Part shown: positions 364 through 14,339 of the stretch, in pieces
How positions within the stretch are numbered: the stretch's first letter is position 1
How the letters are laid out: each line of letters opens with the position of its first letter
Source of the DNA: a virus
Reading direction: 5' to 3' (one strand)
IMG/VR virus record: IMGVR_UViG_3300006051_000118
Location: 1-23,558 of that record
DNA: 23,558 bases
Notes under the pieces: model-generated
Told to the model about the DNA's origin: nothing
Databases searched by the model: none
The model's input: only the letters and a program-made list of their open reading frames with translations
Program-made: the position numbers and the translations under genes

Positions 364-366
364 TGG

Positions 367-801
367 TTAAGCCTCCGCAACAAAGGCAAGCGGACCGGCG
401 GCAACGAAAGTCGCCGAGAAATCCATATTGCCTTCCATTTCGCCGCTGAACTCGAAGTCCGAGACGAACCAAGGGCCGGTGTAGGTGCCGAGGCCAGGCA
501 CGATGACCTTGGCGTTGAACTTGGTGGCGTCGTTGACGTGCGTAATGAAAGCCGTCGTCTCAGCGCTTTTCACGAACTTGCCCGACCCTGAGAAGGTGCG
601 GTTCTTGATACCCGGCTCCGCCGTCTTTTGAGGCGTGGCGTCAGGGTTCAAACAGTCTGGAATGGTCGTATCGACCTCGTTCGCAGACATGTTGAATGAC
701 CGCGTCGTGACGCCGCAAAGATTGTTGAATTCTTCCGGTCCCGGCGTGGTGTTGCCATCCCCGATTTGGATGAGGAGCTTGCGGCCGATCTGCTGTACCA
801 T
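367..801 (-). CDS. phage major tail (tube) protein (144 aa)
   Basis: The protein forms the stacked rings of the tail tube. It begins MVQQIGRKLLIQIGDG and continues with the beta-rich pattern typical of TP901-1/GTA-type major tail proteins, including NNLCGVTTRSFNMSANEVD near residues 26-45 and a C-terminal half matching the usual 'tail tube with added subdomain' layout. Its length of 144 residues is normal for the family. It lies between the tail completion gene (818-1228) and the chaperone-like gene (1-363), which is the standard siphophage order. Nothing is broken or unusual. Confidence 0.85.
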   Translation of the reverse strand: MVQQIGRKLLIQIGDGNTTPGPEEFNNLCGVTTRSFNMSANEVDTTIPDCLNPDATPQKTAEPGIKNRTFSGSGKFVKSAETTAFITHVNDATKFNAKVIVPGLGTYTGPWFVSDFEFSGEMEGNMDFSATFVAAGPLAFVAEA

Positions 802-817
802 TTTAATCTCCGATGGT

Positions 818-1228
818 TCAGGGCGTTTCGATGACGGCGCGCAGTTCGATCACTGCATGGCCGGTGATATTGTCGCGATCGTAAAAGACACGGTCGCCAC
901 GGTGGTCGAGCGTCACCAGCGCATTGCTGGGTAGCGCGAGCGGGTAACCATGCAAGGCTTCCCCAATGAGAAATGCGATAGCGCGAACGTCCTGCAGGGC
1001 GTTCGGGGTTTCAGCGAAAGCGTGGATGACGAGGCCTACAGTCGACGATCGAAGCTCAGTGCCGTCTGCCCGGCGGACATCCGCCTCACCCATGACGACA
1101 TAAGGAGGAGAATTGACTTCACCGGGCTTCAGGAAAACGCGGCCTTCGCCGATCAAATCAGTCAAGGGCGCATAGGTTCTCAACCGGGCAGCCGCCAGCC
1201 CGACAAGCTCATGTGCTGGCGCTGCCAT
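818..1228 (-). CDS. DUF3168 tail completion / tail terminator protein (136 aa)
   Basis: DUF3168 proteins (SPP1 gp17-like) cap the tail tube and join it to the head. The start AHELVGLAAARLRTYAPLTD followed by the GEGRVFLKPGEVNSPPYVVMG stretch in the first 50 residues fits the family: a helix that packs on the ring, then a beta strand beginning with a conserved proline-rich turn. The later DRDNITGHAVIELRAVIE strand closes the fold. Its start codon abuts the stop of the HK97 gp10-like gene, so the two are probably translationally coupled. Confidence 0.82.
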   Translation of the reverse strand: MAAPAHELVGLAAARLRTYAPLTDLIGEGRVFLKPGEVNSPPYVVMGEADVRRADGTELRSSTVGLVIHAFAETPNALQDVRAIAFLIGEALHGYPLALPSNALVTLDHRGDRVFYDRDNITGHAVIELRAVIETP

Positions 1229-1717
1229 TTATTTCTTCCTGTGCTGCCGGATGGCCTTGTTCAGAGCGTTCCGAACCTTCTTCTTCGCCTCGGGCTGGTA
1301 TGCCCGCCAAGTCGGGAAGATGTGCGGAAATGGTCGCGAGCCGGGATGCTGGTAACCGCCACCCTCACGCATCTTCATCTGCCCCAGAACCGTGCCTCCG
1401 CCCTTCTGGGTATTATGGGGCGCTGTGCCGAACTCCAGAAATCGCCAGATGAACTTGGCGAACAGTCCGGCCGCGCTCGGGTCTTTAGTCGGCGCGCGCC
1501 CTACCGATTCTGTCGCTGGACGATCCGCAACGCGGTCGCCCTCGATACTCTCCAGATAATCAAGACTTTCGCCAGTCGGCGCTCTGCGCTGGACTTGAAC
1601 GGCAAGTTCCTTCATCGCGTCGAGCTTGGCGTCGGCAGTGTATCGGTCGGCATCAGGGATGATCGCGTTCAAGCGTTTCATCAGCGCCGCGCGACCCTGG
1701 ACTTTAGCCTTCAGCAT
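1229..1717 (-). CDS. HK97 gp10 family protein, head-tail/tail component (162 aa)
   Basis: HK97 gp10-like proteins act at the head-tail joint and tail terminator. The pattern here is usual for the family: MLKAKVQGRAALMKRLNAI, a long amphipathic helix with AVQVQRRAPTGE near residues 50-60, then FAKFIWRFLEFGTAPHN and the conserved 'HPGSRPFPHIFPTW' motif around residues 125-140. A highly basic C-terminus ends it. The start overlaps the upstream 59-residue gene by 14 bases. Calling it a structural protein is secure; its exact position in the virion is inferred. Confidence 0.85.
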   Translation of the reverse strand: MLKAKVQGRAALMKRLNAIIPDADRYTADAKLDAMKELAVQVQRRAPTGESLDYLESIEGDRVADRPATESVGRAPTKDPSAAGLFAKFIWRFLEFGTAPHNTQKGGGTVLGQMKMREGGGYQHPGSRPFPHIFPTWRAYQPEAKKKVRNALNKAIRQHRKK

Positions 1718-1883
1718 CAGAGGATGCGCGGCTGTGGCTTTTCACCTCGACAGCTTTGCCGCCGGCAATCGCCTCATCAGCGCACTCGCGGCGCACTGTC
1801 AATTCCATGCCAGCCTTGTACTCGATGGTCTTTCCACCTGTCGGACGATAATCGAAGTCGCCCGTAAATCGCACGCGAGCCAT
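1704..1883 (-). CDS. small conserved phage protein (59 aa)
   Basis: A short gene that is easily missed. It starts at the ATG at 1883-1881 with a strong AGGAGG ribosome site 4 bases upstream and ends in TAA at 1704, overlapping the next gene by 14 bases. The product begins MARVRFTGDFDYRPTGGKTI and continues YKAGMELTVRRECADEAIAA, then a basic tail. It fills the otherwise empty gap between the head closure and gp10-like genes. The type is familiar from this position in rhizobial prophages, but its function is unknown; a minor structural or assembly role is a guess from context. Confidence 0.75.
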   Translation of the reverse strand: MARVRFTGDFDYRPTGGKTIEYKAGMELTVRRECADEAIAGGKAVEVKSHSRASSDAEG

Positions 1884-1891
1884 GCTGCCTC

Positions 1892-2251
1892 CTATGCGGC
1901 CACGCCGCTCTTCGCCTGAAAATAGATGAAACCCGGCATGGTCAGACCGTCAGGCTGCGCGTTGATCGCGTATTCGCGCTCAACGCCGTGATCTGTGATG
2001 ATCATGCGCCACTCAGAGGTGATCTGCCGCGTCTGTGTGGATGCTCGAACATAAACGTTGAGGACTTGCGTCCCTTCCAGCCGAGCGGCAACGACGGCTT
2101 CAGAAAGCCCCCCTGGACGCAGCGCGACCCACACCTTGAACTTCTCTTCCCACTCGCCGGAAACCGGGTTCCCATAACCGTCATCGCCGACCGCTCTCGC
2201 CTCGAAACGCCCACGGTTCTTAAAATCTCCGGCCTGAAGCTTCGGTGCCAT
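1892..2251 (-). CDS. head closure / head-tail adaptor protein (119 aa)
   Basis: A member of the SPP1 gp16 / head-tail adaptor family that plugs the connector after DNA packaging. The family signature is the beta-barrel opening with KNRGRFEARAVGDDGYGNPV, then a strand with WVALRPGGLSEAVVAARLEG around residues 41-60 and the C-terminal ITDHGVEREYAINAQPDG strand pair. The length matches the family. It is 3 bases downstream of the connector gene and 8 bases upstream of the 59-residue gene. Confidence 0.85.
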   Translation of the reverse strand: MAPKLQAGDFKNRGRFEARAVGDDGYGNPVSGEWEEKFKVWVALRPGGLSEAVVAARLEGTQVLNVYVRASTQTRQITSEWRMIITDHGVEREYAINAQPDGLTMPGFIYFQAKSGVAA

Positions 2252-2254
2252 AAA

Positions 2255-2551
2255 TCACACCCGCAACAAGCGATATGGGTTGATGAGCATCTGCGCGGCA
2301 GATGGGATACCTTCACCACCACTACGATTTTCGAACAGATCGCTCACGATCATGAGCGCAGCAACCTTGAACACGCTTTCAGCGCCGAGAGGCACGAGCG
2401 TGACGTTGCAATACTGGAGAACAGCCTTCTCAGCGGCATCCATGTAGGCCTGAATGGTCGCGTCGTCATCGCTTGTGTCGACGTGAAGATGCGCCTTGAC
2501 CTCTTCCAAGGTATAAAGCGGTCCTAGTTCTTTGATGACGACGTTTCCCAT
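2255..2551 (-). CDS. head-tail connector protein, gp6-like (98 aa)
   Basis: Connector proteins of the HK97 gp6 type form a ring below the portal. The sequence has the all-helical fold of the family: YTLEEVKAHLHVDTSDDDAT near residues 13-32, a long helix with YMDAAEKAVLQYCN, and the C-terminal PSAAQMLINPYRLLRV, whose 'INPYR' ending is typical. I chose the ATG at 2551, giving MGNVVIKELGPLY. A longer reading to 2680 would overlap the neighbouring gene and adds a basic, unlikely stretch. Confidence 0.82.
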   Translation of the reverse strand: MGNVVIKELGPLYTLEEVKAHLHVDTSDDDATIQAYMDAAEKAVLQYCNVTLVPLGAESVFKVAALMIVSDLFENRSGGEGIPSAAQMLINPYRLLRV

Positions 2552-2561
2552 AGATCGGCCC

Positions 2562-2756
2562 TTACGTATCAAGAGATTTGTTCGCGAGAGGCGGCGCCAT
2601 CTTGTTCTTGACCGGCGGAGCAACCTTTGCGGCACCATCGCCGGCCTTGCGGACCGCTCCCAACGCTTCCAAACGGTCAAAATCGACCTTGTCGAATTCG
2701 CGCTCAGATCCTTCGGGATCGCCGTCCAGCGGCTTAATGAGAATTGCCTTGATCAT
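2562..2756 (-). CDS. small hypothetical phage protein between capsid and connector genes (64 aa)
   Basis: Starts at the ATG at 2756 with a perfect AAGGAGG site 5 bases before it. The product begins MIKAILIKPLDGDPEGSERE and has a short beta-like start, a helical FDRLEALGAVR segment and a basic, proline- and alanine-rich tail. It lies between the major capsid gene and the connector gene, separated from the former by a hairpin (2780-2804). Small proteins in this slot are common in rhizobial siphophages. The function is unknown; a minor head role is only a suggestion. Confidence 0.72.
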   Translation of the reverse strand: MIKAILIKPLDGDPEGSEREFDKVDFDRLEALGAVRKAGDGAAKVAPPVKNKMAPPLANKSLDT

Positions 2757-2779
2757 GACTACCTCCTTCGGTTCATGAA

Positions 2780-2804
2780 ACCGGCGCCACAGAGCAGCGC
2801 CGGT
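2780..2804 (-). terminator. hairpin after the capsid gene (attenuator or mRNA stabiliser)
   Basis: An 8-bp perfect inverted repeat, ACCGGCGC / GCGCCGGT with a 9-base loop, lies 20 bases downstream of the capsid stop in the direction of transcription. It is followed by TTTCATGAACC rather than a real U-tract, so it is probably a partial terminator or an RNA-end stabiliser that sets capsid messages above those of the next gene. That role is inferred from position. Confidence 0.5.
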
Positions 2805-2823
2805 CGGTATGAGCCGAAAAAGA

Positions 2824-4137
2824 TCAGGTCACGCGGCCGAGATCGCCATAAACGATGGCCTGCGGGCGGTAGATCGCCAGCGCAAGACGCTCTTCTGCGC
2901 GGATGGTGACCTTGTTGCGGACGAAGTTGTCCTGATCTTCGGTCGAAACATCGACAGTCGCGTCCTGACGGTCGAAGATCTGGGCCGCAAGATTGAAGGC
3001 GCCGACGAGAGCCTTGTCGACGCCCATGGCCTGCGTTTCCACCACAGGCAGGCCCCACAGGGTCTTCTGGATCGTGCCCTGCGGATTACCGATGATGTAA
3101 CGACCGGTGTCATCCTTCTGCATTTCGATCGCGGCCATGTCGATCGGGTTCATGACGATACCGTTCGGCGGATATTCCGCCAGCGCGGCCTGCAGAATGA
3201 TCAAACGAATGGTATCGAGCTGCGTGGTTGCAGCCAAACCGCCCGGAGCGGCGAAAGCCGTCGCGGCAGTCACCAAGCCAAGGATGTTCTGGCCGACGCC
3301 GGAGCCGTTGAGAAGCTGCTGCTCTTCGACGTAGGACAGGCCGTAGCGCAAACGCTGGTCGATGATCGAGCGCAGGCCGGGAGCGTCCGCAAGAATTTGC
3401 ACCGAAGTGCGCATCCAGTGGGCGATGGTCCGAACGTTTGCGACCTTGTCTTCGAACTGCAGTTCCGACTGCGGCTTGAGGGCGCCTTCGGCAACCGGCG
3501 CGGCATTATTGGTGAATAGCTTCTCCTGTTCGTATTCGATCGAGCTGCTGGAGGTCTCACCAGGCATCAGGAGCGAGCGAACGGTCATACGGCGCTGTGG
3601 CAGCTCAACCTGCATGCCGCGACGGTCGGAAGGGATCAGCGCGCCGGCAGAGCCGGGTGCATCCGTCGTCAGCGAAGTAATATCCTTCACCTCCACGAGA
3701 ACCCGCCCACGCGGACGGGTCTGGCCGGCAAATGCCTTGAAGTTTTCGTCCTCGACGAAACGTTCGCCGGCCGTGCGGGCTTCGTCACCGTCGCCGCCGC
3801 GCCGCGCCATCTTCTGGTCGAGCTCATCAAGGCGAGCCTTGGCATCGTTCATGCCCTTGATCGCCTCGTCCGCCAATTCCTTGGCAGTGGCCGCCAGCGG
3901 GGCACCCTTTTCGGCCTCGGCAAGCGCTTTTTCGGCGATTTCCTTGACCTTGTCGTGCTTGGTCTCGAATTCGCGCTTGAACTCGGCAGCCAGCTCCGCA
4001 GCCGTCTTGCTGCCATTGCCACCGGAGCGATCCGGCATATCGAACATGATGCGCGGGCCGAACGGCATGGCCGCCATGGACGCCACGGCAAAGGCAATCG
4101 ATCCGCCACCAAGGATGGCGAGTTTACGTCCCGACAT
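2824..4137 (-). CDS. major capsid protein, HK97 fold, with N-terminal scaffold (delta) domain (437 aa)
   Basis: Builds the icosahedral shell. After about 40 residues, residues 45-115 form a charged coiled coil (repeated K/E/A helices, then AKARLDELDQKMARRG) that matches the delta domain acting as internal scaffold and later removed by the prohead protease. The HK97-fold body follows from about residue 145 (SLTTDAPGSAGALIPSDRRG) and ends with EERLALAIYRPQAIVYGD, a typical P-domain/A-domain ending. GGAGG lies 5 bases before the ATG. The protease gene is directly upstream, as expected for a processed capsid. The first 30 residues look like a hydrophobic segment, but this is probably part of the delta region and not a signal peptide. 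Confidence 0.93.
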   Translation of the reverse strand: MSGRKLAILGGGSIAFAVASMAAMPFGPRIMFDMPDRSGGNGSKTAAELAAEFKREFETKHDKVKEIAEKALAEAEKGAPLAATAKELADEAIKGMNDAKARLDELDQKMARRGGDGDEARTAGERFVEDENFKAFAGQTRPRGRVLVEVKDITSLTTDAPGSAGALIPSDRRGMQVELPQRRMTVRSLLMPGETSSSSIEYEQEKLFTNNAAPVAEGALKPQSELQFEDKVANVRTIAHWMRTSVQILADAPGLRSIIDQRLRYGLSYVEEQQLLNGSGVGQNILGLVTAATAFAAPGGLAATTQLDTIRLIILQAALAEYPPNGIVMNPIDMAAIEMQKDDTGRYIIGNPQGTIQKTLWGLPVVETQAMGVDKALVGAFNLAAQIFDRQDATVDVSTEDQDNFVRNKVTIRAEERLALAIYRPQAIVYGDLGRVT

Positions 4138-4170
4138 GGGAACCTCCAGTTTTCGGTTGAAATCGGGCTT

Positions 4171-4845
4171 TCAGCCCACAAGGGCGCGAAGAAATTCCAC
4201 GCCGTCATCGGCCGCGTCGACAGGTTCCCCCTGCCCCTTCAAGCAGATACGCGCGGCGCGCTCCGCCTGAGAATTCGAAAAACCTACCTCAAGGCCCTTG
4301 AGCCAGGTCTCGAATTCACGTTCCGTCAGCCGGTCCCCGGCCTTCAGCTTTTCGGTCAGCTCATGCACGGCCTTCGCCGCCTTAACGCTCTGAACGACCG
4401 CATTTTCATTGGCGCCGACAGACACGACGCTGACCTCAATCAGATTGAGCTTTTCCAACGTCCAGATGCCGGTCTCGTCGTCGACACTGTGTTTTTGTAT
4501 CCGGTAGCCAATGGACAGGCCGTCGATGTCACCGGCCTTCAGCAGTGCATAGGCTTCGCGGCCGCGCTGCACTTCCATATTCAGCTTTCCCTGCATCAGC
4601 AGGCCGTGATCGTCTTCCTTCGCGGAAACCCACTTGCCGATCGGCTCGTCACGATTGTGCTGCCAGAACATCTTGGGCATGGTGCCCTTGGCTTTGTGGG
4701 CGGCCAAGCTCTCGGTATAGGCGCCGACCGCGATAACATCGCCGTAAACGTCCGGCTCACCGCCAAACGTCGAGCCATAACCTTCGAACTCACCGGTATC
4801 CTTGAGCGACTTGATCTCAAGAATCGGAGCCGTTTTCTTGTCCAT
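4171..4845 (-). CDS. HK97-family prohead protease, peptidase S78 (224 aa)
   Basis: Cleaves the capsid delta domain during head maturation. Counting from the chosen start (MDKKTAPILEIKSL), the catalytic His is H63 in MFWQHNRDEPIGKW and the Ser is S111 in the DGLSIGYR motif, both classical for S78 proteases; the third member of the triad would lie in the LNLIEVSVVS strand. A GGAG site 6 bases upstream supports the start at 4845; a start 21 bases further upstream is possible but lacks this spacing. The gene overlaps the portal gene by 29 bases and precedes the capsid gene. Confidence 0.92.
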   Translation of the reverse strand: MDKKTAPILEIKSLKDTGEFEGYGSTFGGEPDVYGDVIAVGAYTESLAAHKAKGTMPKMFWQHNRDEPIGKWVSAKEDDHGLLMQGKLNMEVQRGREAYALLKAGDIDGLSIGYRIQKHSVDDETGIWTLEKLNLIEVSVVSVGANENAVVQSVKAAKAVHELTEKLKAGDRLTEREFETWLKGLEVGFSNSQAERAARICLKGQGEPVDAADDGVEFLRALVG

Positions 4846-6100
4846 TTCGATCTCCGTTGATGGCATTTACGAGCGGAATGTCCTGCATCTGCACCGTCAC
4901 GACATCGCCGCCCTCGATTGGCGGCAGGTTTTCCAGCGCGCGGCACTCGTTTCGGGTGGCAAGGCCCATGCGGATGGCCTTCTCGTAAGCCTCATACCGA
5001 CTGGCGGTATCGCCCCGGAGCAGGCCTTCCAGATTGAATTCGATCGTGATGCCCTGAGACCGGCGCTCCGAGAGCGGAATAAGCTGCTTCTCGACAGACT
5101 GCTCCATGCGCTTAAGGCGCTTGCGAAGGGCGAATTTCTGGAAACCGAGGACATCGGCCTCCTTGCCGGTTCCCCAGTTCGAGGCTTTATCCCCGAAGCC
5201 GACCATCGCCGGAGGGACGCCAAATATCCGGCAGATCTGCTCACCACTGAATTTCCGGCTTTCCAGCATCTGCGCATCCTGCGGCTTGATGGAAAGCTGC
5301 TGCCAGGTCAGCCCGTTGTCGAGCAACATCGGTCGGCCGGAGCGCATGGCGCCGACATACCGCTCTTGCAAGATCCGCTCCAAATCCTGCCGCTGCTCTT
5401 TCGAGAGCTGCTGATCAGGCTTTGTCGAGAGGACGCCACCGGGGTTGACGCCATTCTTGAACATAGATCCGGCAGCATCTTCTGCGGCCATCGCATCGGA
5501 AAAAACGCTGCTGCAGATTGAGAGCGTCGAAGATCCGGAAACACCATCGCCCAATGAACCCCGAATATGCAAAACATCCGCACTACGCCTGACGTAACTG
5601 CGGCCATTATCCGACCAAGAATACTCTAGGTCGCCGTCCGGCTTTCGGGTTACCTTCATCCGGTCTGGGCGGATCGGATGGAGGGCCGTAACGATGCCGC
5701 CGGCGCGGCGCTCGATCAGAGCGTATGCGTTGCCGTAAAGCTCAACGCTCGCGGCCATTACCTCCCAGAAATCCACCGCCGTCTGGTCAAAGTTAGGGCT
5801 GTCATGCAGCACGAAGTACAGCGGATGATCCTTCGCTACGGTACGAACGCCGTTTTCCGTGCGGTATATCATCAAAGGCAAAGAAGCGATTGTGCCTGCG
5901 ATAAGCTGGACACAAGCCCACGTGGCCGAAAGGCCGACCGCCGCATTCGCCTGTCCATATCGACCATCTTGCCAATCGGCCAACGTCACCTGATTGGTCG
6001 TAAAATTATCGCCGTTCTCGGTCGAAGCAGCGCCCGAACGCCACGGTTCGATGTCCTTCACGCCACTGAGGCGCGCCATAATTCGCCCGAACCGGTTCAT
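4817..6100 (-). CDS. phage portal protein, HK97 family (427 aa)
   Basis: Forms the dodecameric ring through which DNA enters and leaves the head. Family signatures include VGLSATWACVQLIAGTIASLP near residues 55-75, the ELYGNAYALIER motif, IRPDRMKV, a long stem-helix region, and the wing/crown segment FGVPPAMVGFGDKASNWGTG. The length is normal. I chose the ATG at 6100 because it gives a 4-base ATGA overlap with the large terminase stop; a GTG at 6118 would add six residues. It sits between large terminase and prohead protease in the canonical packaging-head order. Confidence 0.93.
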   Translation of the reverse strand: MNRFGRIMARLSGVKDIEPWRSGAASTENGDNFTTNQVTLADWQDGRYGQANAAVGLSATWACVQLIAGTIASLPLMIYRTENGVRTVAKDHPLYFVLHDSPNFDQTAVDFWEVMAASVELYGNAYALIERRAGGIVTALHPIRPDRMKVTRKPDGDLEYSWSDNGRSYVRRSADVLHIRGSLGDGVSGSSTLSICSSVFSDAMAAEDAAGSMFKNGVNPGGVLSTKPDQQLSKEQRQDLERILQERYVGAMRSGRPMLLDNGLTWQQLSIKPQDAQMLESRKFSGEQICRIFGVPPAMVGFGDKASNWGTGKEADVLGFQKFALRKRLKRMEQSVEKQLIPLSERRSQGITIEFNLEGLLRGDTASRYEAYEKAIRMGLATRNECRALENLPPIEGGDVVTVQMQDIPLVNAINGDRNGQENGSDS

Positions 6101-7806
6101 GCGTAACTCTCTATCCACGCTTCCGCATCGAATGCAGGAGCTGCTTCAGGATTTCGGCTCATCAGCATGACCGCCGCAAATGTCGCGATCAGCGGGTCAA
6201 TCTTGGCTTTGCCGGATGTCTGTTTCTCAACCACCACGGCGTTTCCGCGCTGGATGACCTTGGCGTTGCCGACCGAAAACGTCATCAGGTCCTGACCGCC
6301 GTGGGAAAATGTCCCGTCTTTCAGCTTTCGCTCCAGCCCCCACACCGCCGGGGACAGCCGAAAACCCTGACTGACTGACACCAGGAGCGGGTCACCCATA
6401 CCCCTGGACGCCAATTCGTCGATGATCGCCGCAACGCCCTGCGGGTCGAAACCGATGCCGCCTGCCTTCGGCAGCAAACCTGCATCACGGATCCTCTCGC
6501 AGACATCAGCAACGCCGAGAATGTCGGCGACTGTATCGTCGCAAAAGGTCAATTGACCGAGATCAGCAATATCCTGCAGGCGAGAAGCGATATCCTTGCG
6601 AAGGTCCAAGACATCTCGCTGACACCATGCATGCGACCAGTGCAACCACCGACGCGTCGTCTTGCATCGACCGATGACGGCAGCTGCAAGCAGATCGTCA
6701 AGACCGCCGCCATCGACGCCGACAACCGCAACCTCGGATCGTTCGATCAACTCGTCCAGATCCTGAAGCCGGTCATCCTTGGCGCTTTCCCAAAAGTGAG
6801 CACCGCGCCAGCTGGTACCGTTGATGGCAATGCCGATCTCAATATTGAGATGCTGGCTCGCCCAGATCGAGAAGTCGCCGACGCCCTTTTCCTTCGCCTC
6901 CCTGAATTTTGGCAGAAGGCGTCCGATCGTCACTGATCGGTTGATATTTGGCAGGACAAGAGGCCAGTGCTTGGGGTTTTCCCAAGGCTTGCTCTCATCC
7001 GACTGCATCGCCGCCGGAAACTCGTAGAGCATCGGCAGCGTTTCACCTTCGGTAAATTCCCCGTCGCGAACAGCGCGCGCCAGATCAAGTTCCGATTTGA
7101 ACACGCCCGCCGGCGGCTCAACCGACTGCGTCGTGATGATGATCACAAACCCTTCTGGGTTTGCCAGGATACCGCCGTCGATCTGCGACATCACCTTGGC
7201 TGCGTAAGCGATTGTGCCGAGCTCGTGCAGCTCGTCGACAAGAACCCCAACTGGCTTGACGCCCGTCATCACCTTGCTGTCGAACGATTTGACCTTGAGT
7301 TTCGCACCGTTCTTGCGGTCCTCGATCGTCTTGACGTGGTCCTTCGCGTGAAAGCGCTTCTTCAGCCACGGATCAGCATCGACCATGCCCTTCGCCTGGT
7401 CATATGCCAGTTCAGCCGTGGCCTGCGTCGGGCCGACAAGAAGAAACTCCGCGTTTGGCCGTCGATTTCTCAGCAGCGCGGTCATCATGATCGCGGCGCC
7501 GTTCGTCGTCTTAGAATTCTTCTTCGGCACGAGCTGGAAGAACTTCTTCACCGGCCGGTTGATGATGAGAGAGCGATCCTCGCTCATTTCCACCAGGCCA
7601 AAGATCGCCGAGACGAAATCCCTTGCCCACTGACCAGCGACGTCGCGCAGGAGCGGCTGACCGGGAACGTCTGGCAGTCGTAGTTTGTTGAAAACGACGA
7701 CTGCGGCGTCTGCCTCTTCACGGTCAATCGGCAGATTGTCGGGAAGAGGCGACCGACCGTCCTTCAGCTTTTCAAACCAGTCAGGGCAGGAAAGATCCAG
7801 CATCAT
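6097..7806 (-). CDS. terL: terminase large subunit, Terminase_1 / HK97 type (569 aa)
   Basis: The ATP-driven DNA packaging motor and genome-cutting nuclease. Residues 93-103 carry the Walker A variant VPKKNSKTTNG used by this family, and residues 186-195 (VGVLVDELHE) carry Walker B with the catalytic Glu. The RNase H-like nuclease begins near residue 358, with the first metal-binding Asp in VVGVDGGGLDD (D365), and further acidic residues follow in LTFCDDTVADI. HK97-type terminases cut at cos sites with help from an HNH protein, which fits the HNH gene at 8564-8935. The start overlaps the small terminase stop (ATGA). The gene is full length. Confidence 0.95.
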   Translation of the reverse strand: MMLDLSCPDWFEKLKDGRSPLPDNLPIDREEADAAVVVFNKLRLPDVPGQPLLRDVAGQWARDFVSAIFGLVEMSEDRSLIINRPVKKFFQLVPKKNSKTTNGAAIMMTALLRNRRPNAEFLLVGPTQATAELAYDQAKGMVDADPWLKKRFHAKDHVKTIEDRKNGAKLKVKSFDSKVMTGVKPVGVLVDELHELGTIAYAAKVMSQIDGGILANPEGFVIIITTQSVEPPAGVFKSELDLARAVRDGEFTEGETLPMLYEFPAAMQSDESKPWENPKHWPLVLPNINRSVTIGRLLPKFREAKEKGVGDFSIWASQHLNIEIGIAINGTSWRGAHFWESAKDDRLQDLDELIERSEVAVVGVDGGGLDDLLAAAVIGRCKTTRRWLHWSHAWCQRDVLDLRKDIASRLQDIADLGQLTFCDDTVADILGVADVCERIRDAGLLPKAGGIGFDPQGVAAIIDELASRGMGDPLLVSVSQGFRLSPAVWGLERKLKDGTFSHGGQDLMTFSVGNAKVIQRGNAVVVEKQTSGKAKIDPLIATFAAVMLMSRNPEAAPAFDAEAWIESYA

Positions 7807-8258
7807 TGCATCGTCTGCGGGATTGCGCCTTCCCAGTCATCCGGCGGACTGTCCGCCTCGATACGGGCCTGCTCCTTTTTGCCGACACGATCTTTCGCCC
7901 GCTCGACCTGCTCTCCAAAGATATCGCCGACCGCCGCATCGTGACGCCGGAAATATTCCTTCATGGCAGCGACATTCCCTTCGCGCCCCATATTCCAGAG
8001 GGTCAGGATGCCGATTGCCTCAACGCGATCGCGGGCCACATCCCTCGTCTTCAGAACTGAAAAATAATGCCGCTTCAAAGTCGGTATCGTGATGCCAACG
8101 GCGCCAGCGATCCGCTCGTTCGTCCAACCCTGCGCCAAAAGGAGCATGATTTTGTTGATGTTTTCCTTCGTCGGCACGTGTTCTGGCCTGCCGCGTTTCC
8201 CGGCATTGCGCCTCACGGGATCGCCAAACAGGTCGAAAGCCGTCTCAGAATTATCCAT
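7803..8258 (-). CDS. terS: probable terminase small subunit, HTH protein (151 aa)
   Basis: Located directly before the large terminase with a 4-base overlap, where the DNA-recognition subunit is expected. The N-terminus has a basic RRNAGKRGRPEHVPTKE stretch, followed around residues 35-65 by a helix-turn-helix, LLLAQGWTNERIAGAVGITI and then TLKRHYFSVL. The C-terminal half is long and helical, suited to oligomerisation. The sequence is not close to any well-known TerS family that I recognise, so the call rests on position plus the HTH. The message begins with a weak GGA site followed by a run of eight T. Confidence 0.65.
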   Translation of the reverse strand: MDNSETAFDLFGDPVRRNAGKRGRPEHVPTKENINKIMLLLAQGWTNERIAGAVGITIPTLKRHYFSVLKTRDVARDRVEAIGILTLWNMGREGNVAAMKEYFRRHDAAVGDIFGEQVERAKDRVGKKEQARIEADSPPDDWEGAIPQTMQ

Positions 8259-8297
8259 GCCGAAAAAAAATCCGTGAATGAGAGGGACGCGGGTGCG

Positions 8298-8314
8298 GGG
8301 CCGCCGGCCCTTTT
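8298..8314 (+). terminator. short GC hairpin with T-run, possible plus-strand terminator
   Basis: GGGCC-GCC-GGCCC at 8298-8310 is followed by TTTT. Read on the plus strand it has the form of a weak intrinsic terminator, although no plus-strand gene lies just before it, so it may only damp antisense transcription into the small membrane-protein gene. Close by is a run of eight C (8329-8336). The function is uncertain. Confidence 0.3.
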
Positions 8315-8407
8315 GAACTTTTGACCCGCCCCCCCCTTCGAGACGGGAACCGATACCGCCGTCATGGGTTGATGCGGCTCACCTGCCGATCATCAAAGGA
8401 CGCCCGC

Positions 8408-8563
8408 ATGAACACCGACAAGAAAGCCCGTCGCGGAATGACCACCTACGTTGCAGTGATCTTCGTGCTCGGCCTCATCATTGCTGGCGCTTACGTTCTC
8501 GTACTGAAACCCGGTGAGACTTCAGACCAGCCCGCGATCGAGGCAGTCAATCCGAACGGCTAA
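8408..8563 (+). CDS. small single-pass membrane protein, possible moron (51 aa)
   Basis: The only plus-strand gene within the late region. The ATG at 8408 follows AAAGGA by 6 bases. The product has a positive start (MNTDKKARRG), one clear membrane segment at about residues 13-33 (TTYVAVIFVLGLIIAGAYVL) and a polar acidic tail outside or in the periplasm. Its TAA stop directly abuts the TGA of the convergent HNH gene with no base between. The opposite orientation, small size and lack of an operon partner suggest a moron: a gene expressed on its own, possibly from the lysogen. No family is recognised. Confidence 0.6.
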   Translation: MNTDKKARRGMTTYVAVIFVLGLIIAGAYVLVLKPGETSDQPAIEAVNPNG

Positions 8564-8935
8564 TCACCAACCGAGCCGCGCCCGCTCCTGCTTCTGTTTC
8601 TCGCTGTCGTGGTAAGCCTTGGTCACCGTCTGGAGATTATTGATATCCCAGAACAGACGCTCGTCACCGCGATGCGGCTCCTTGTGGTCGATCACCGGGC
8701 TGTTTGGCTCGGGATGCTTGCCGGTGCAAATCACGCCAGTCTGCTGGCATGTCCAGTGATCACGCTTCAAGACCTCGATCCGAAGCGCCTTCCATCTCTG
8801 ACTGTGATACCACTTGCGCCAAGGGATCACCTTCTCGCGCTCATTCAACCTTGCCTTCTCATCACCAGGCGCACGACCGATCCGTGACGGCATCGAGGTC
8901 AACCGAGGTGGAAGAGACTTGAGACGAGGAGGCAT
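8564..8935 (-). CDS. HNH endonuclease of the packaging module (123 aa)
   Basis: HNH proteins next to terminase support cos cleavage in HK97-like packaging. The ββα-metal core spans about residues 60-112: CQQTGVIC, the DHKEPHRG motif with H84 as the general base, DINNLQTV with N100, and H109 in AYHDSEKQKQE, which is the usual ending in this phage family. The N-terminal 40 residues are basic and probably bind DNA. The start is uncertain because neither the ATG at 8935 nor the one at 8893 has a good ribosome site. A terminator hairpin lies 16 bases upstream of the start. Confidence 0.85.
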   Translation of the reverse strand: MPPRLKSLPPRLTSMPSRIGRAPGDEKARLNEREKVIPWRKWYHSQRWKALRIEVLKRDHWTCQQTGVICTGKHPEPNSPVIDHKEPHRGDERLFWDINNLQTVTKAYHDSEKQKQERARLGW

Positions 8936-8940
8936 ACTCT

Positions 8941-8971
8941 AAGAACACAAAAGGCGACCTCTCGGTCGCCT
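8941..8971 (-). terminator. intrinsic terminator between NusG-like and HNH genes
   Basis: On the minus strand, an 8-bp perfect stem AGGCGACC / GGTCGCCT is closed by a GAGA tetraloop (GNRA type) and followed at once by TTTGTGTTCTT. This is a classical Rho-independent terminator for the early operon, placed after the NusG-like gene and before the HNH, terminase and head genes. Late genes could be read from upstream only if it were bypassed. Confidence 0.75.
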
Positions 8972-9135
8972 ATCATCCTATGCAGCAGCACTTGCCCTGA
9001 CTTCGCACCTCTAAAACGAGGCTGTCAGAGCCGGGGCCGGAGGAGAACATCAATCCCCTAAGGGAGCATCAGACGCTCCGGTCATCCCGCAGGCAGTGGC
9101 GAGACTCGCCGCTGCCTTGTCCGACTCGATAAACC
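8972..9135 (-). other. structured non-coding region downstream of the NusG-like gene
   Basis: No gene is supported here. On the minus strand three more inverted repeats precede the terminator. The first is AGGCAG/CTGCCT with an inner GGCGA/TCGCC (9091-9117). The second is GGAGC/GCTCC with a 7-base loop (9063-9079). The third has an outer CTGAC/GTCAG stem (8997-9001 with 9024-9028) around an inner CCTC/GAGG hairpin (9008-9021). With the terminator this gives about four stems in 200 bases, the look of a structured leader or an antitermination signal. The role is inferred; the structures are read by eye. Confidence 0.45.
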
Positions 9136-9825
9136 TCATGCGGCTAGAGAGTCAATATCAAGCTCCACGGGCCTCATGCTGCCGAAAAGATTGATCTCAA
9201 CCTCGGCACGCCAACGGCCGGATGCCACCTTGCGCACCACTGCCTGAAAGTCTGCGAAAGGCCCGCGAGCAATCGTTACATGCTCACCGACCGATACCGG
9301 AATCTTCACCTCATCGGGCTGAACACACTCACCTTTCTTGACACCAAGCATAAGCGCATCCATGACCTTCGGTGGCATCAGAAACGGCCTTCCGTCTTGG
9401 CCCATGATGCCCTTGAGGCGTGACGCTGATAGAACACCGACGAACGCTTCCTCTGTCGGAACCACGCGAACGAACAGATAGCCACGGAAGAATGGCCGAA
9501 AGATATCCACAGGCTTAAGGCCACGACGGGGGCGCGTCCTGAACTTTTCCATCGGGCACCAGCTCTGAATATGGCTCTCGCCCAGTTCTTCGCCGATTAC
9601 CTGCTCACTGCCAGACCGACACGTTGCAACGACCCAACGCGCCATCCGGTCGAAGCCAGGGGCATCCATGCCCGCAGCCTGAACAAGATGACCGCGAGCC
9701 GCACGAGCAGCCTCCGCCTTTTGCTGGCGCTCGTAGAGACGAGCACGCTCATGCGCCGATAGCTGGGCCTCGACCATGGGCCGGAAGCTGATCTTCTTTC
9801 CGGTGATCCTATTCTGCATCATCAT
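9136..9825 (-). CDS. NusG-like transcription elongation/antitermination factor (229 aa)
   Basis: NusG-family proteins bind RNA polymerase through the NGN domain and control pausing and termination. The NGN domain covers about residues 62-165, from ARWVVATCRSGSEQ through the signature FFRGYLFVRVVPTEE (112-126). A KOW motif follows at 177-204, in VSVGEHVTIARGPFADFQAV. Residues 1-60 are an extra charged helical extension absent from host NusG. Three ATGs in a row (9825, 9822, 9819) follow GAGGGTAAGGG; the gene overlaps the initiator gene by 17 bases. It is the last early gene before the late operon, the place of lambda Q, so late antitermination is the probable job, but this is not shown by the sequence alone. 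Confidence 0.85.
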   Translation of the reverse strand: MMMQNRITGKKISFRPMVEAQLSAHERARLYERQQKAEAARAARGHLVQAAGMDAPGFDRMARWVVATCRSGSEQVIGEELGESHIQSWCPMEKFRTRPRRGLKPVDIFRPFFRGYLFVRVVPTEEAFVGVLSASRLKGIMGQDGRPFLMPPKVMDALMLGVKKGECVQPDEVKIPVSVGEHVTIARGPFADFQAVVRKVASGRWRAEVEINLFGSMRPVELDIDSLAA

Positions 9826-10972
9826 AACCCTTACCCTCGTTGAGTTTCGCCTCAAAATCCGCCATCGCATCTTCCGGCTGACCCGCCGGGAAATAGAGCC
9901 ATTCATGACCGGTTGCCGGCAGCCACGGCCATCCGCGACGATCGTGCATCGCCTTCCATTCGGCGGCGAGATCGCTGTCGCGGTGGACCTTCTCGAAGCC
10001 CTCGGAGACGACCAGAAGCTCCGGCAGCACCGACGCGCCTTTGGCGTTTGCCGCCAGTTCATGCAGGGTATTCACCTTCGGCCAGCCGTACTTGGAGCGA
10101 CGCTCCATCTCGACAGCCTTTGCCGCCTCAGCGCTCTGGCTGGCCTGATTGCGCTGGAAAGCCGTCATCACCGGCCATGCCGTCGCCATCGGCTTGAGAA
10201 GCTCGGAAAGGCGAAGCGCCATCCATGCACGGCTGAACGGGTTGTGCATCGAGGCAGGCGCCACATCGGAACGAGGATCTTCCAGACGCTCCCAGGCACG
10301 TTCCTTGAGGTAGACCGCCGGGAATGTGAAACTGCCGCCTTTGCGGGCCTTCACCGCAGCAACGAAAGCTGGCGTCTTCTCGATGCAGGCAGCACGCTGG
10401 TCTGCCGTAAGCTCGTACCAGTTTCGCCGCGTGGCATCCTCACTGCCGTTGGGATAGGTCGGCCAGGTCGGCCACCAGCGGAGGAAATCACGCTCGATCT
10501 TTTTCCTGTCTTCCCCGGAAATCGCGCTCGCGCCCTCTCTCTCAGGTTCCTTTACAGGTTCTCTTACTGGTTTAGCGGACTCCATTGTCCGGTTCAAAAC
10601 GTCGATTTTGTCCGGTTCAAACTGCTGATTTTGTCCGGTTGAAGCCTCAATATTTGAACCGGACAAATTGTCCGCCTCAAGATTTTCGGTCGCCGCGATG
10701 AAGCCATCCTCGAAAGAAAGCGAATAGCGGTTTTCCTTGCGGAACTTGCCCTGCCGCTGCTCGACCCAGTTCACCAGCCCCTTGGCGCGCAGCGAGACGA
10801 GATGACGGCGCACAGAGCGCTCGTCGATCTCGCAGGCCTCGGCAAGGTATTCCTGAGACGGGAAACAGCCCAAAACGGGATTGTGGCAGTCGGACAGGTG
10901 GAACAGAACGCGCGCCTCTGCGCAGGAGACGCCGCGAACCGTGGCGGCCCAATTGGTGGCCTTGTGGCTCAT
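9809..10972 (-). CDS. phage replication initiator-like protein with N-terminal HTH (387 aa)
   Basis: Residues about 15-65 form a winged-helix/HTH_36-type domain (SCAEARVLFHLSDCHNP, then SQEYLAEACEIDERSVRRHL and VSLRAKGLVNW), as found in many phage replication initiators. A polar linker follows (about 97-150), and a second, tryptophan-rich domain starts at KKIERDFLRWWPTWP. The DNA encoding the linker holds an iteron cluster (10585-10681), the same design as lambda O, where the origin lies inside the initiator gene. It overlaps its neighbours on both sides (ATGA upstream, 17 bases into the NusG-like gene downstream). No helicase loader is recognised nearby. Initiator function is inferred from domain plus iterons. 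Confidence 0.72.
   Translation of the reverse strand: MSHKATNWAATVRGVSCAEARVLFHLSDCHNPVLGCFPSQEYLAEACEIDERSVRRHLVSLRAKGLVNWVEQRQGKFRKENRYSLSFEDGFIAATENLEADNLSGSNIEASTGQNQQFEPDKIDVLNRTMESAKPVREPVKEPEREGASAISGEDRKKIERDFLRWWPTWPTYPNGSEDATRRNWYELTADQRAACIEKTPAFVAAVKARKGGSFTFPAVYLKERAWERLEDPRSDVAPASMHNPFSRAWMALRLSELLKPMATAWPVMTAFQRNQASQSAEAAKAVEMERRSKYGWPKVNTLHELAANAKGASVLPELLVVSEGFEKVHRDSDLAAEWKAMHDRRGWPWLPATGHEWLYFPAGQPEDAMADFEAKLNEGKGYDDAE
10585..10681. repeat. iteron cluster inside the initiator gene, candidate replication origin
   Basis: Five copies of TTGTCCGGTTCAAA or close variants. Direct copies lie at 10585-10598 (exact), 10608-10621 (exact) and 10631-10644 (ends TTGAAG), spaced exactly 23 bp. 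An exact inverted copy lies at 10653-10666, and a degenerate direct copy at 10668-10681 reads TTGTCCGCCTCAAG. The repeat is far too regular for coding constraint, since the encoded linker is not repetitive. Iterons in the middle of an O-type gene are the standard lambdoid origin arrangement. Confidence 0.75.
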
Positions 10973-11301
10973 GCGTCACCAGCCTTCGGCTTATTCGGCC
11001 GATCGTCCGTGCCCGTACGGCGCTCCTCATAGGCAATCAGGAAAGCAATGCAACAAGCCGCATGCCATAGGTGCGAGCGCCCGGTTTCAGCATCGCGGGA
11101 TTGCCCCGCCCACCATGCCCACAGATGACGCATGAGGGCGCCGAAGACGCGGCTCCACGCCATGCCGCGCTCCCAGTTGCGAACGCCATACTTCCCCGCA
11201 CCGAAGGTGAGGATATCGCCGACAGCCGTCATCAGCTCCGGCGGTATAAGTTCCATCTGCGGCTTGCCCGCATCATCCTTGCGCCCCTCTCCGCCGCTCA
11301 T
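10969..11301 (-). CDS. DUF5664 protein, dATP/dGTP diphosphohydrolase-like (110 aa)
   Basis: The family (phage dATP/dGTP diphosphohydrolase N-terminal domain) belongs to the all-alpha nucleotide hydrolases related to MazG. The key family segments are present: LIPPELMTAVGDILTFGAGK, YGVRNWERGM, MRHLWAWWAGQSRDAETGRS and HLWHAACCIAFLIAYEE, with the histidines and acidic residues that would bind metal. Pool cleaning or tuning of purine dNTPs during replication is the likely role. It overlaps both neighbours by ATGA, so it is tightly coupled to the initiator gene. Its length is normal for the short phage form. Confidence 0.8.
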   Translation of the reverse strand: MSGGEGRKDDAGKPQMELIPPELMTAVGDILTFGAGKYGVRNWERGMAWSRVFGALMRHLWAWWAGQSRDAETGRSHLWHAACCIAFLIAYEERRTGTDDRPNKPKAGDA

Positions 11302-11948
11302 CGACCGATCTCCCGCTCGATGCGGCGCGCCAGCGAGCGCAACTCGTCAACCTTCGGCACGAGAGCGTTGAACGCCTCTCGGCTGGCCGCTGCCGCCGCA
11401 TCCGCCTTTTTGGTGAGGTCCGAGACCTCCGACATCGCCGCCGTCACCTGAACCTGCTTTTCCGCATATTCGTCGAACAGAGGATTGGAGCCTGCAGGAC
11501 CAAAGAACTCGTCACGCGTCTTCGTCACCCAGTCGCGCGGCACGCCGAGATCCTTGGCAACGGCGGTATCGGTCCAGGGCGTCTTGTAAGCGTCCTTGCC
11601 ATAGACCTCGTCGAGTTTTTCCATGATGATGCGGCGGTCTTCACGCGTGCATTCGCGCGGCGGCTCCGCCATCGGAGCCGGACTGGCTACGGCGTTGGTC
11701 ATGTTCTTTGTCGCCTTTCGCTGGGCTGGGCGGGCGTGAAGAGGGCAGAAGTCCTTGCGAGCGGAGCTTCCGACCGACCATCCCTTGTTCTGGAAATACT
11801 GCTGTGCCGCGACAGGCGGCCGGCGCTTGTGGCCCGTCTGGAACGGGTGATAGGCAACTGCGCCACAATGGGCGCAGCTGATCTTCATGGCTTTGAGCGG
11901 GTTGCCCTCGACCGAGATGCTCTCTTCCGGAAAGGTCCGATCGGTCAT
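11298..11948 (-). CDS. hypothetical phage protein with zinc-ribbon-like start and coiled-coil end (216 aa)
   Basis: Not recognised as a known family. Near the N-terminus KISCAHCGAVAYHP and later DFCPLHARP give a CxxC plus a CxxH pair, consistent with a small zinc-binding domain. The middle section around residues 98-140 (CTREDRRIIMEKLDEVYG, then TDTAVAKDLGVPRDWVTKTR) looks like a winged or simple helix-turn-helix. The last 60 residues form a coiled coil. The start at 11948 (MTDRTFPEES) gives an ATGA overlap with the preceding gene. A DNA-binding role in early regulation or replication is possible, not shown. Confidence 0.75.
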   Translation of the reverse strand: MTDRTFPEESISVEGNPLKAMKISCAHCGAVAYHPFQTGHKRRPPVAAQQYFQNKGWSVGSSARKDFCPLHARPAQRKATKNMTNAVASPAPMAEPPRECTREDRRIIMEKLDEVYGKDAYKTPWTDTAVAKDLGVPRDWVTKTRDEFFGPAGSNPLFDEYAEKQVQVTAAMSEVSDLTKKADAAAAASREAFNALVPKVDELRSLARRIEREIGR

Positions 11949-12490
11949 GCCGCCCAACCTTTCTGCCAGTCCTGAAAATCGGTCCGCAGCTTCAGGAAGC
12001 GCTGGCGCGCCACCAGATCGTCATTCAGTTCCGATTTCGACTTGATGTTCAGGATGAACTTCATCCGCGTATCGGCAGCCTGCGCCGAGGCGATGGCGCC
12101 GCCCGGTCCCTTGCCCTCCAGGAAGCGCCAGAAAGCCACGCTGTCGCACAGCGCCTTTGCCGTAAAACCCCAGTTTTCCTTACGGCCACGGTCGTGCATG
12201 TTGGCGAGCTGACCACGCAATTCGCGCACATTGTCGACGGCGCGGCCGATGGTGCCAAGCAGCAGGAACAGGTGATCCAGCGCGCCCGCGACGAGATCCT
12301 GCTCGTCCGCCGATGCGTCAGGATGCAGCGTGAGAATCCGGGATTTCTCACCCGTCGTGCGATGCGCGACGATATGATACCCGTCGTCATCGGCATCGAT
12401 ATGCCAGGTGTCGCCAGCAAGGCGTTGAGTAATCTGACGAAGCCGCAGGATGACCTGTTTTTCGTGCTCACGGTCGTGGGGCGTGCTCAT
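11945..12490 (-). CDS. hypothetical early phage protein (181 aa)
   Basis: No family is recognised. The first half is mixed alpha/beta with a DTWHIDADDDGYHIVAHRTT strand pair. The second half is helical and includes NWGFTAKALCDSVAFWRFLE, then a lysine-rich FILNIKSKSELNDD segment. No catalytic motif, membrane segment or signal peptide is visible. It lies between the methyltransferase and the zinc-ribbon protein with ATGA overlaps at both ends, so it belongs to the same early operon and probably to DNA metabolism or regulation. Confidence 0.72.
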   Translation of the reverse strand: MSTPHDREHEKQVILRLRQITQRLAGDTWHIDADDDGYHIVAHRTTGEKSRILTLHPDASADEQDLVAGALDHLFLLLGTIGRAVDNVRELRGQLANMHDRGRKENWGFTAKALCDSVAFWRFLEGKGPGGAIASAQAADTRMKFILNIKSKSELNDDLVARQRFLKLRTDFQDWQKGWAA

Positions 12491-13851
12491 GCCGCCACCT
12501 CATCGGCCTCAGCGGCCATTTCGACAGGCACGTAATCGGTCCAGTTCACCCGGATATCGACTGTCTGGCTTCCGTACGTGCCGTCCGGCTGCAGCTCCCA
12601 GATGAACCACGCCGTGTTCATGCTGCTGGAGGCAACCGGCCCGGTCCAGCCGTCGCGATGCATCATCGGAAGACGGCGGGAGAAGGACAGCTTCCGCGCG
12701 GGCGGGTTTTCGTCGAGCACGAAATTCCGTTCCGGATCGTCATATCCGAACCAGAAATTTGCGTTCAGCAGCAGCGCCATCTTGCGCGGACGGTGGACCT
12801 TGAGGGCGTGCGCCACGAACGCGTTCAGGACCGCGCCGTAAGGCGGATTGGTCACGATATCCGGGCGATCCTCGAACGCCTCAGTCGTGAGGAAATCGGC
12901 GACCTCCTGAAGCTCGCCATGCGCCGTCGCCGTGCCGTAATCGACGAGGTCGGAGATCCGCACATCATAACCGGCATCTTCCATCGGACGGCTGGTTGCG
13001 CCGCGCCCGCAGGAAGGGTCCCACACCAGCGACCCGAATTTCTCCAGCGCCAGCAGCGTGAACATCGCTTCCGGCCCGGTTTCGTAAAGATTGTTTCCGC
13101 GCTCTTCCTTCGTCGCCGTCTTGGTGCCAATCGAGGCGCGAAGGCTCGCACGGGTCGGCTCCAGTCCGGCCGCGAGGCGTGCCGCAATGGCGCGCTCCGC
13201 AATACCCGGCTCCCGCCGATCCGCATCCAGCAGCTTTTTGGCGTAATGCAATTCCTTGCGGGTCAGCCCCGCCTCTTCCGCCGTAAAAGCGTTCTCGTCG
13301 GGAACGCTTTTTGGCCGTCCTTTCAGCGTCTTGCCTTCCTGCCCCGCCTTCTCCCATTCCTCGGCAATGCGCATCTTGGCCTTCACCTCGATGTCGAGAG
13401 CGTCAGCCTGAATGCGATGGCACGCAGCAAGACTTTCCTTCAATTTGAAGCGGGCGGAGAAGCTGGCGCCAGCCTTGGCTTGATCATAAACGCCCTCGGC
13501 AAGCTGGCGCGCGGCGAAAACGTCGCCATCGGCAAACATCAAGCGCGCCTGGCTGTTGCGCACCGCCAGAGCGGTGAGACCGGTTGACGCCTCTGCGGAG
13601 GCCGCCACGACCTCGCCGCCGGAAACGCCGGCATCGAGCCATGCCAGCATCTCCCGCGCCTTGTCGGTCGGGTACCAGACAGAAGCGGCCTTCTTGTCGC
13701 GGTCGAGATATCCGTGCGCGTTGACGTTCGTCGCTGCGGTGCGTTCCGCCTGCCCATTATCTTCGAAGCGACCGGCAGCAACAGCGACGCGGACGATATC
13801 CAGACCACGCGGGCCGGGAACCTTGAATGGTTTTTTCTGTGGCACGGCCAT
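12487..13851 (-). CDS. class I SAM-dependent DNA methyltransferase with helical N-terminal region (454 aa)
   Basis: The C-terminal half is an amino-methyltransferase: the SAM-binding motif I is VWDPSCGRGATSRPMEDAG (D278 onward) and the catalytic motif IV is DIVTNPPYG (N335-P-P-Y338), the N6-adenine type. The N-terminal 250 residues are mostly helical and contain an ALTRKELHYAKK-like segment (residues 193-206) and a basic ASLRASIGTKT section that may bind DNA, in the manner of ParB-related helices. No cognate restriction gene is present, so it is an orphan enzyme that probably protects phage DNA or marks it for timing. Target bases cannot be read from the sequence. Confidence 0.82.
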   Translation of the reverse strand: MAVPQKKPFKVPGPRGLDIVRVAVAAGRFEDNGQAERTAATNVNAHGYLDRDKKAASVWYPTDKAREMLAWLDAGVSGGEVVAASAEASTGLTALAVRNSQARLMFADGDVFAARQLAEGVYDQAKAGASFSARFKLKESLAACHRIQADALDIEVKAKMRIAEEWEKAGQEGKTLKGRPKSVPDENAFTAEEAGLTRKELHYAKKLLDADRREPGIAERAIAARLAAGLEPTRASLRASIGTKTATKEERGNNLYETGPEAMFTLLALEKFGSLVWDPSCGRGATSRPMEDAGYDVRISDLVDYGTATAHGELQEVADFLTTEAFEDRPDIVTNPPYGAVLNAFVAHALKVHRPRKMALLLNANFWFGYDDPERNFVLDENPPARKLSFSRRLPMMHRDGWTGPVASSSMNTAWFIWELQPDGTYGSQTVDIRVNWTDYVPVEMAAEADEVAA

Positions 13852-13853
13852 GA

Positions 13854-14339
13854 TCAGCCCTCCGCCATATTGGCGCGGACTTCGGCGATTTCACGCTCAA
13901 GCTCGCGGAGTTGCTCTTCGATAGCTTTTTTGTCGGCGGCGCAGATCCGCCCGTCAGCGCGCGCTTCGCGCAGAGCGTTGAACACGTCCATGGCCTCCTT
14001 CATGAAGTCCATGACGTCGCCGTCCGAGAGCTTGTGCGCCTGCGGCTGCTGGCCATCTTCTGGCACAAGACGATAGCCCAGCTGACGCGCGGCCTCGGAA
14101 ATGATCATCGGGCTGCCGGCGCGGCGATCAGCCTCGACGGCAACATCGACCCCGATCACCTTCTCGAAATTGTCGGGATCATGGATATCGATGTAGCGCG
14201 AAAGCACCGGTCCGCTGACACGGGTTAATCGTGCGAAGGAGGTCAGGCCGCCGCCAAGCTTGAGGCAAACCGCCGTCGCGCCTTTGATGGCGATAACGCC
14301 CTCGTCTTCAATCGTTCGTATGCTGCCATCTGGACGCAC
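13854..14339 (-). CDS. CII-like phage regulatory protein (161 aa)
   Basis: Begins at a GTG (14339) preceded by AAGGAG at 7 bases, giving RPDGSIRTIEDEG after the start. Residues about 20-50 contain an HTH-like stretch (ATAVCLKLGGGLTSFARLTR, then VSGPVLSRYIDIHD), followed by DVAVEADRRAGSPMIISEAA, a pattern met in CP76/CII-type regulators of phages. The C-terminal 50 residues form a charged coiled coil for oligomerisation. It is the second gene of the leftward early operon after cro, the position of lambda cII. A TTG at 14360 is a possible alternative start without a good ribosome site. Confidence 0.65.
   Translation of the reverse strand: MRPDGSIRTIEDEGVIAIKGATAVCLKLGGGLTSFARLTRVSGPVLSRYIDIHDPDNFEKVIGVDVAVEADRRAGSPMIISEAARQLGYRLVPEDGQQPQAHKLSDGDVMDFMKEAMDVFNALREARADGRICAADKKAIEEQLRELEREIAEVRANMAEG

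Follow-up and report, generated by a model that had tools for sequence, protein, structure and literature searches.

The lambda Q protein targets RNA polymerase that has started at pR', and promoter DNA (qut) serves as its loading site. LoaP binds a leader hairpin, and this hairpin is required for antitermination (PMC12691694). A 2025 paper on phiLM21-like prophages described a "transcription antiterminator" gene as conserved among them; in phiLM21 itself, it located an antiterminator and an HNH gene where the early region ends (PMC12429752). Late-gene activation in Alphaproteobacterial temperate phages appears little studied in the literature searched. Here, we compare these systems with a locus in a 23.6-kb virus record from IMG/VR (IMGVR_UViG_3300006051_000118), the whole 23,558 nt of which is referred to as the window. 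Judging from comparative sequence analysis, the locus probably carries a two-part processive antitermination module, in which a phage NusG paralog would be recruited by an RNA to the late operon. The module itself is strongly supported by comparison with its relatives, and from it we infer the antitermination activity.

The NusG paralog and its gene neighborhood

The early operon lies on the minus strand of the window and comprises a CII-like gene, a DNA methyltransferase gene, a replication-initiation gene, and the NusG-like gene, in that order. Annotation with Pfam and PHROG gave the order rep-HTH, NusG, terminator, HNH, TerS, TerL, portal, protease, capsid (Table 1), and phages phi3LM21, vB_MseS-P1, and vB_LagS-V1 show identical gene order or near variants of it. 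The position of the NusG paralog as the last early gene, claimed by the original prediction, is thereby confirmed and is conserved. The small terminase-like gene occupies the position of the annotated TerS of vB_MseS-P1, which weakly suggests the same identity for the gene in the window.

Table 1. Features of the locus in the window (positions in nucleotides)
Feature	Position	Strand	Details
Large terminase (TerL)	6097..7806	-	Pfam, PHROG
Small terminase-like gene	7803..8258	-	PHROG_12540, 9.4e-43 (unknown function); PHROG_309 terminase small subunit, 1e-4
HNH endonuclease	8564..8935	-	PHROG_589, 1.2e-25; first gene past the terminator
Noncoding gap, 200 nt	8936..9135	-	Conserved structured RNA plus terminator
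Intrinsic terminator	8940..8971	-	8-bp stem, GAGA loop, U-rich tail; AGGCGACC-GAGA-GGTCGCCT + TTTGTGTTCT at 8971-8952
Core element	8976..9052	-	Match to covariance model R1, 44.2 bits, E 3e-11; the window is itself 1 of the 63 rows of the model
P3 motif	8981..8992	-	AGUGC-UGCU-GCA; family consensus AGUGC-NNNA-GCUAUG
P1 stem	8994..9031	-	GCUCUGA (9031-9025) / UCAGGGC (9000-8994); encloses P2
P2, inside P1		-	GCCUC (9022-9018) / GAGGU (9011-9007)
Long-range helix X	9037..9081	-	CCGGAG (9081-9076) pairs with CTCCGG (9042-9037)
Hairpin A	9091..9117	-	13-nt arms, 92% complementary
NusG paralog, 229 aa	9136..9825	-	Helix 24-51, NGN 63-163, KOW 181-229
Replication-initiation (HTH) gene	9809..10972	-	Overlaps nusG, directly upstream of it

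Several neighboring features were recorded in passing. The methyltransferase (12487-13851, minus strand) is a phage DNA methyltransferase matching PHROG_799, and a protein with a dATP/dGTP diphosphohydrolase N-terminal domain is encoded at 10969-11301 (minus strand) in the same operon. Within the HNH-TerS interval of the late operon, the opposite strand (8408-8563) encodes a predicted 51-aa single-span membrane protein that has no Pfam match and is found elsewhere only in loci L007 and L008; it is an inserted moron-like gene. The same interval contains, at 8260-8340 just upstream of the TerS start, runs of 8 T and 7 G together with G/C-rich low-complexity sequence (minus strand).

Membership of the paralog in the NusG superfamily (NGN plus KOW), as originally predicted, is borne out by Pfam (NusG, 2.3e-12, residues 63-158), by an AlphaFold2 model (mean pLDDT, 89.4) that provided the domain limits in Table 1 and predicts the C-terminal domain as a beta-barrel, and by Foldseek. 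Among solved structures, the closest in fold were NusG, RfaH, and the NusG-RNA complex 8f5g, which is LoaP with its hairpin. The protein also matches PHROG_6386, "transcription antiterminator" (2.6e-34), as do all 79 family members scanned. The extra 60-residue helical start that had likewise been proposed is confirmed, as the AlphaFold2 model confidently places an additional helix ahead of the NGN domain. Scores against the NCBI/NCBIfam models fell far below their cutoffs for housekeeping NusG (TIGR00922; 54 versus 135.7 bits), RfaH (TIGR01955; 43.8 versus 144.5 bits), UpxY (NF033644; 53.3 versus 100 bits), and LoaP (NF033641; 47.9 versus 125 bits), and the protein was therefore considered a NusG paralog of another subfamily. 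The NusG proteins of phages phi3LM21 and PPF1 are overall only ∼26% identical to that of the window.

Structure of the RNA in the gap

The original prediction named LoaP-type paralogs as a precedent, but it overlooked the RNA: the whole gap between the NusG and HNH genes forms a conserved structured RNA. The fold of the gap RNA has a z score of -2.97, with none of 200 shuffles equally stable. Its layout is conserved in 108 loci, and the gaps of phi3LM21 and PPF1 have the same nucleotides and hairpins as that of the window.

Hairpin A keeps its position in most relatives with a different sequence. In locus L177, which carries an element of the window subtype, hairpin A is shortened or absent while the remainder of the element is retained; as such, this hairpin may be dispensable. 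Helix X in the window subtype (CCGGRG with CYCCGG) forms standard pairs in 15 of 15 sequences, one of its pairs occurring as A-U, G-C, and G.U. Within 9037-9085, one GGAG is common to helix X (CCGGAG/CUCCGG) and to a local hairpin (GGAGC/GCUCC), so that only one of the two can form at a time, possibly a switch between two folds.

For the core element, a covariance model was fitted, since RNAalifold on a MAFFT alignment recovered only 5 pairs and P2 was misaligned. The model gives clean, strong matches, and a profile made without the window still matches the window at 9045-8988 (E 1.1e-7). P1 takes the family form GCYYUGA/UCARRGC, and the arms of P2 covary (GCCUC/GAGGC, GUCUC/GAGAC, GUCCG/CGGAC, and others). 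Among 98 distinct sequences from the loci retrieved, 94.9% of cells were paired, and the covariation score was 0.231 versus 0.097 for shuffled alignments (0 of 500 as high) and at most 0.090 when slid. Because loci were partly retrieved by a 3'-core pattern that included the 3' arm of P1 and the family form of P3, but not P2, the conservation seen there cannot be counted as independent evidence. A second pattern, based on the upstream part of the window subtype, recovered a P1 pair changed to U-A (GCUCUGA/UCAGAGC) that lies outside the first pattern.

In the window-subtype table, G.U cells outnumber A.C cells by ∼25 to 2 over helix X, P1, and the terminator, as expected for an RNA read from this strand. 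Over the large alignment the two are even (33 versus 34), and the RNA-sense bias is confined to P1 inside its end pair and to the window subtype. The P1/P2 segment folds more stably on the opposite strand, so that the energy test lends no support to the sense strand. Two other interpretations of conserved letters were rejected. A "TTGACA" in P1 was discarded as a -35 box by inspection, given the varying P2 loop length and the presence of CTGACA in other members, and by the promoter scan described below; translation of a leader peptide from the conserved GCTATG was discarded by inspection, as loop lengths vary by 1 to 2 nt and no conserved frame follows.

The pattern for the 3' core motif occurs at no fewer than 120 places in IMG/VR. 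In a scan of 84,980 species genomes, 53 motif loci were found, every one in a record whose title names a Rhizobiales host; by our own estimate from base counts alone, ∼7 to 8 genome matches would be expected by chance. Weak model matches in four genomes (22 to 26 bits), with no NusG gene nearby, were set aside as chance. Exactly one element is present in 11 of 12 phage records checked. The exception, Labrenzia phage V1, keeps the order rep, NusG-like, gap, HNH and has a terminator-like hairpin of its own (L005, 5920-7014), but its gap contains another hairpin array (TGAACCC...GGGTTCA). No real match to R1 was obtained there (9.6 bits), and a search for relatives of its NusG protein found none; the gap may hold a second, unrelated type of guide RNA. 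Against Rfam, the element gave no match at gathering score, the best permissive E value being 0.38 or worse, and the RNA is not described in the open-licence papers searched. Provisionally, we regard the element as a newly recognized RNA family absent from Rfam.

Co-occurrence with NusG and the conserved terminator

Among the loci retrieved, all 153 with more than 900 nt of upstream sequence have, on the strand of the motif, a NusG-like gene whose end lies 86 to 182 nt upstream of it. The 8 element loci lacking such a gene all have less than 115 nt of upstream sequence. In the genome scan, the gene is present at 52 of the 53 motif loci, and the remaining locus is cut 56 nt upstream. Approached from the protein side, 397 Rhizobiales-order genomes contain 3 full-length matches to the NusG subfamily (227 to 239 bits), which are the sites of the 3 strong element matches; the other NusG matches among those listed score at most 133 bits, and most lack the N-terminal part.

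The two components also diverge together. In pairwise comparisons, element and NusG distances are correlated (r, 0.52 to 0.63), and partial correlations reach P of ∼0.003, the floor of 300 permutations. Element distance is uncorrelated with that of TerL (0.06), HNH (-0.04), or Rep (0.16). HNH lies about as near the element as NusG, yet shows no correlation of divergence. Given this strict association and co-divergence, the simplest reading would be that the protein recognizes the RNA directly. A different division of labor, in which the RNA itself is the antiterminator in the manner of put or EAR and the paralog contributes only processivity or specificity (as reported for conAn1/conAn2), is unlikely. 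The element, with multiple helices over ∼150 nt, is far larger than a simple protein-binding hairpin, and put and EAR work without a dedicated protein while the conAn2 RNA works with one (PMC9378689, PMC8955417); against this, tight co-divergence and near-exclusive co-occurrence point to direct recognition, and comparison through Rfam yielded no sequence match to either put or EAR.

An intrinsic terminator between the NusG gene and the HNH/terminase/head operon had been predicted, and one was found there. It has the longest stem and the most G-C pairs among terminator-like sites in positions 1-14000. As a class, such sites show no excess in 1-9200 (9 found versus 9.2 expected), and the significance of this terminator thus lies in its conservation rather than in site frequency. 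Among the loci retrieved, a sense terminator follows 91 of 111 nonredundant elements, starting 26 to 71 nt from the motif start, compared with 65 of 503 random windows (∼13%), 41 of 333 shuffles (12%), and 21 of 111 antisense sequences (19%). The other 20 elements (18%) have no recognizable terminator within 120 nt. Three main, unrelated families of terminator stems follow the same element, which makes read-through by a pairing that overlaps the terminator unlikely; a modified polymerase that ignores any terminator would fit this diversity better than alternative pairing with one terminator.

Promoter-like signals, scored against the sigma-70 consensus only, occur in the gap at 2.8% over 108 loci versus 1.9% at random, with no enrichment on either side of the element. 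This result bears on a reading that we consider quite unlikely, namely, that binding of the element by the paralog serves autoregulation of its mRNA or protection from Rho, the late genes having their own promoter. The element does lie in the 3' untranslated region (UTR) of the paralog's own gene, and NusG proteins act with Rho. Neither side of the element shows promoter-like enrichment, however, and it is an intrinsic terminator, rather than Rho-dependent termination only, that is conserved right behind it.

A further reading, in which the element acts in trans as a stable small RNA, either cleaved or released from the nusG 3' UTR, is improbable. A structured RNA of ∼150 to 190 nt with a terminal intrinsic terminator is a typical shape of a 3'-UTR small RNA, and the element has this form. 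An RNA acting in trans would nevertheless need neither a fixed place between the paralog and the late genes where neighbors have been exchanged nor co-divergence with NusG, and the elements lacking a terminator also argue against it. Finally, a DNA packaging site (cos or pac) is highly improbable: cos sites are often located just upstream of HNH-TerS-TerL, as the element is, and it contains inverted repeats, but its divergence follows NusG, with which it is strictly associated, without a significant link to TerL or HNH, the same element stands beside TerL families without phmmer similarity (two of the TerL reference proteins used share none detectable), and helix X and P1 show compensatory changes and sense-strand G.U pairs.

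Proposed mechanism and comparison with known systems

For the preferred reading, an RNA-recruited NusG paralog, we propose the following sequence of events. The last early gene would produce the phage-specific paralog, and ∼100 nt past its stop codon the same transcript would form the structured RNA (hairpin A, helix X, and P1/P2/P3), followed by the terminator, at which early transcripts would mostly end. Once accumulated, the paralog would recognize the nascent RNA and load, via its NGN domain, onto the RNA polymerase that had just made it. The loaded polymerase would then pass the adjoining and later terminators, allowing expression of the HNH, terminase, head, and tail genes. Such a circuit would build in a delay between early and late expression without a separate late promoter. 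The comparative data are consistent with this late-gene read-through. Tentatively, the scheme may be extended: the element, as an undescribed RNA family that accompanies Rhizobiales phages and prophages, could serve a new NusG subfamily as its dedicated guide, read with the help of the extra N-terminal helix. RNA and protein would then co-evolve in interchangeable pairs that set specificity, each phage antiterminating no late operon but its own in a cell with several prophages.

If correct, the proposal points to a testable switch for many rhizobial prophages, and a phage system would join the few RNA-recruited NusG paralogs known so far. It also supplies an RNA family missing from Rfam, and its many naturally co-diverged protein-RNA pairs could reveal the rules of recognition.

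Among known systems, lambda Q/qut/tR' shares the succession of last early gene, terminator, and late genes. The parallel drawn in the original prediction thus holds for position. It does not extend to mechanism: Q is not a NusG homolog and loads at promoter DNA, whereas the window has a structured RNA co-evolving with NusG, and the sigma-70 consensus scan of 108 loci revealed no promoter-like enrichment, at odds with a Q-type binding site embedded in a late promoter. RfaH shares the NusG-paralog fold and is recruited via a short conserved element; ops, however, is a non-template DNA hairpin, and the window protein scores 44 versus 144.5 bits, its C-terminal domain being predicted as a beta-barrel. 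HK022 put RNA and EAR are cis RNAs that make RNA polymerase ignore terminators, but they have no dedicated protein, whereas the window RNA co-diverges with a NusG paralog. The conAn1/conAn2 system of pLS20 is a two-part, protein-plus-RNA processive antitermination system (PMC8955417), but it serves conjugation operons of Gram-positive plasmids, and ConAn1 has been described as a separate protein type. GafZ of the Caulobacter gene transfer agent (GTA) provides a case of Alphaproteobacterial head-gene control by antitermination (PMC11150451), differing in that it works with host NusG at a promoter DNA element.

The closest counterpart is LoaP with the dfn/mln leader hairpin of Bacillus, which shares a NusG paralog gene adjacent to the target operon and an RNA element that precedes an intrinsic terminator. 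The targets of LoaP are antibiotic operons in Firmicutes, reached by way of a simple UNCG hairpin, whereas the window system, from Alphaproteobacterial phages, has a larger, multi-helix RNA 3' of the paralog's own gene, and its protein scores 48 bits against the LoaP cutoff of 125 and carries an extra N-terminal helix. Of the LoaP-like hallmarks, the RNA element and the terminator are present and conserved in the window, and binding of the paralog to the RNA is putative. By analogy, the arrangement is most likely of the LoaP/dfn-hairpin type rather than the Q type in mechanism.
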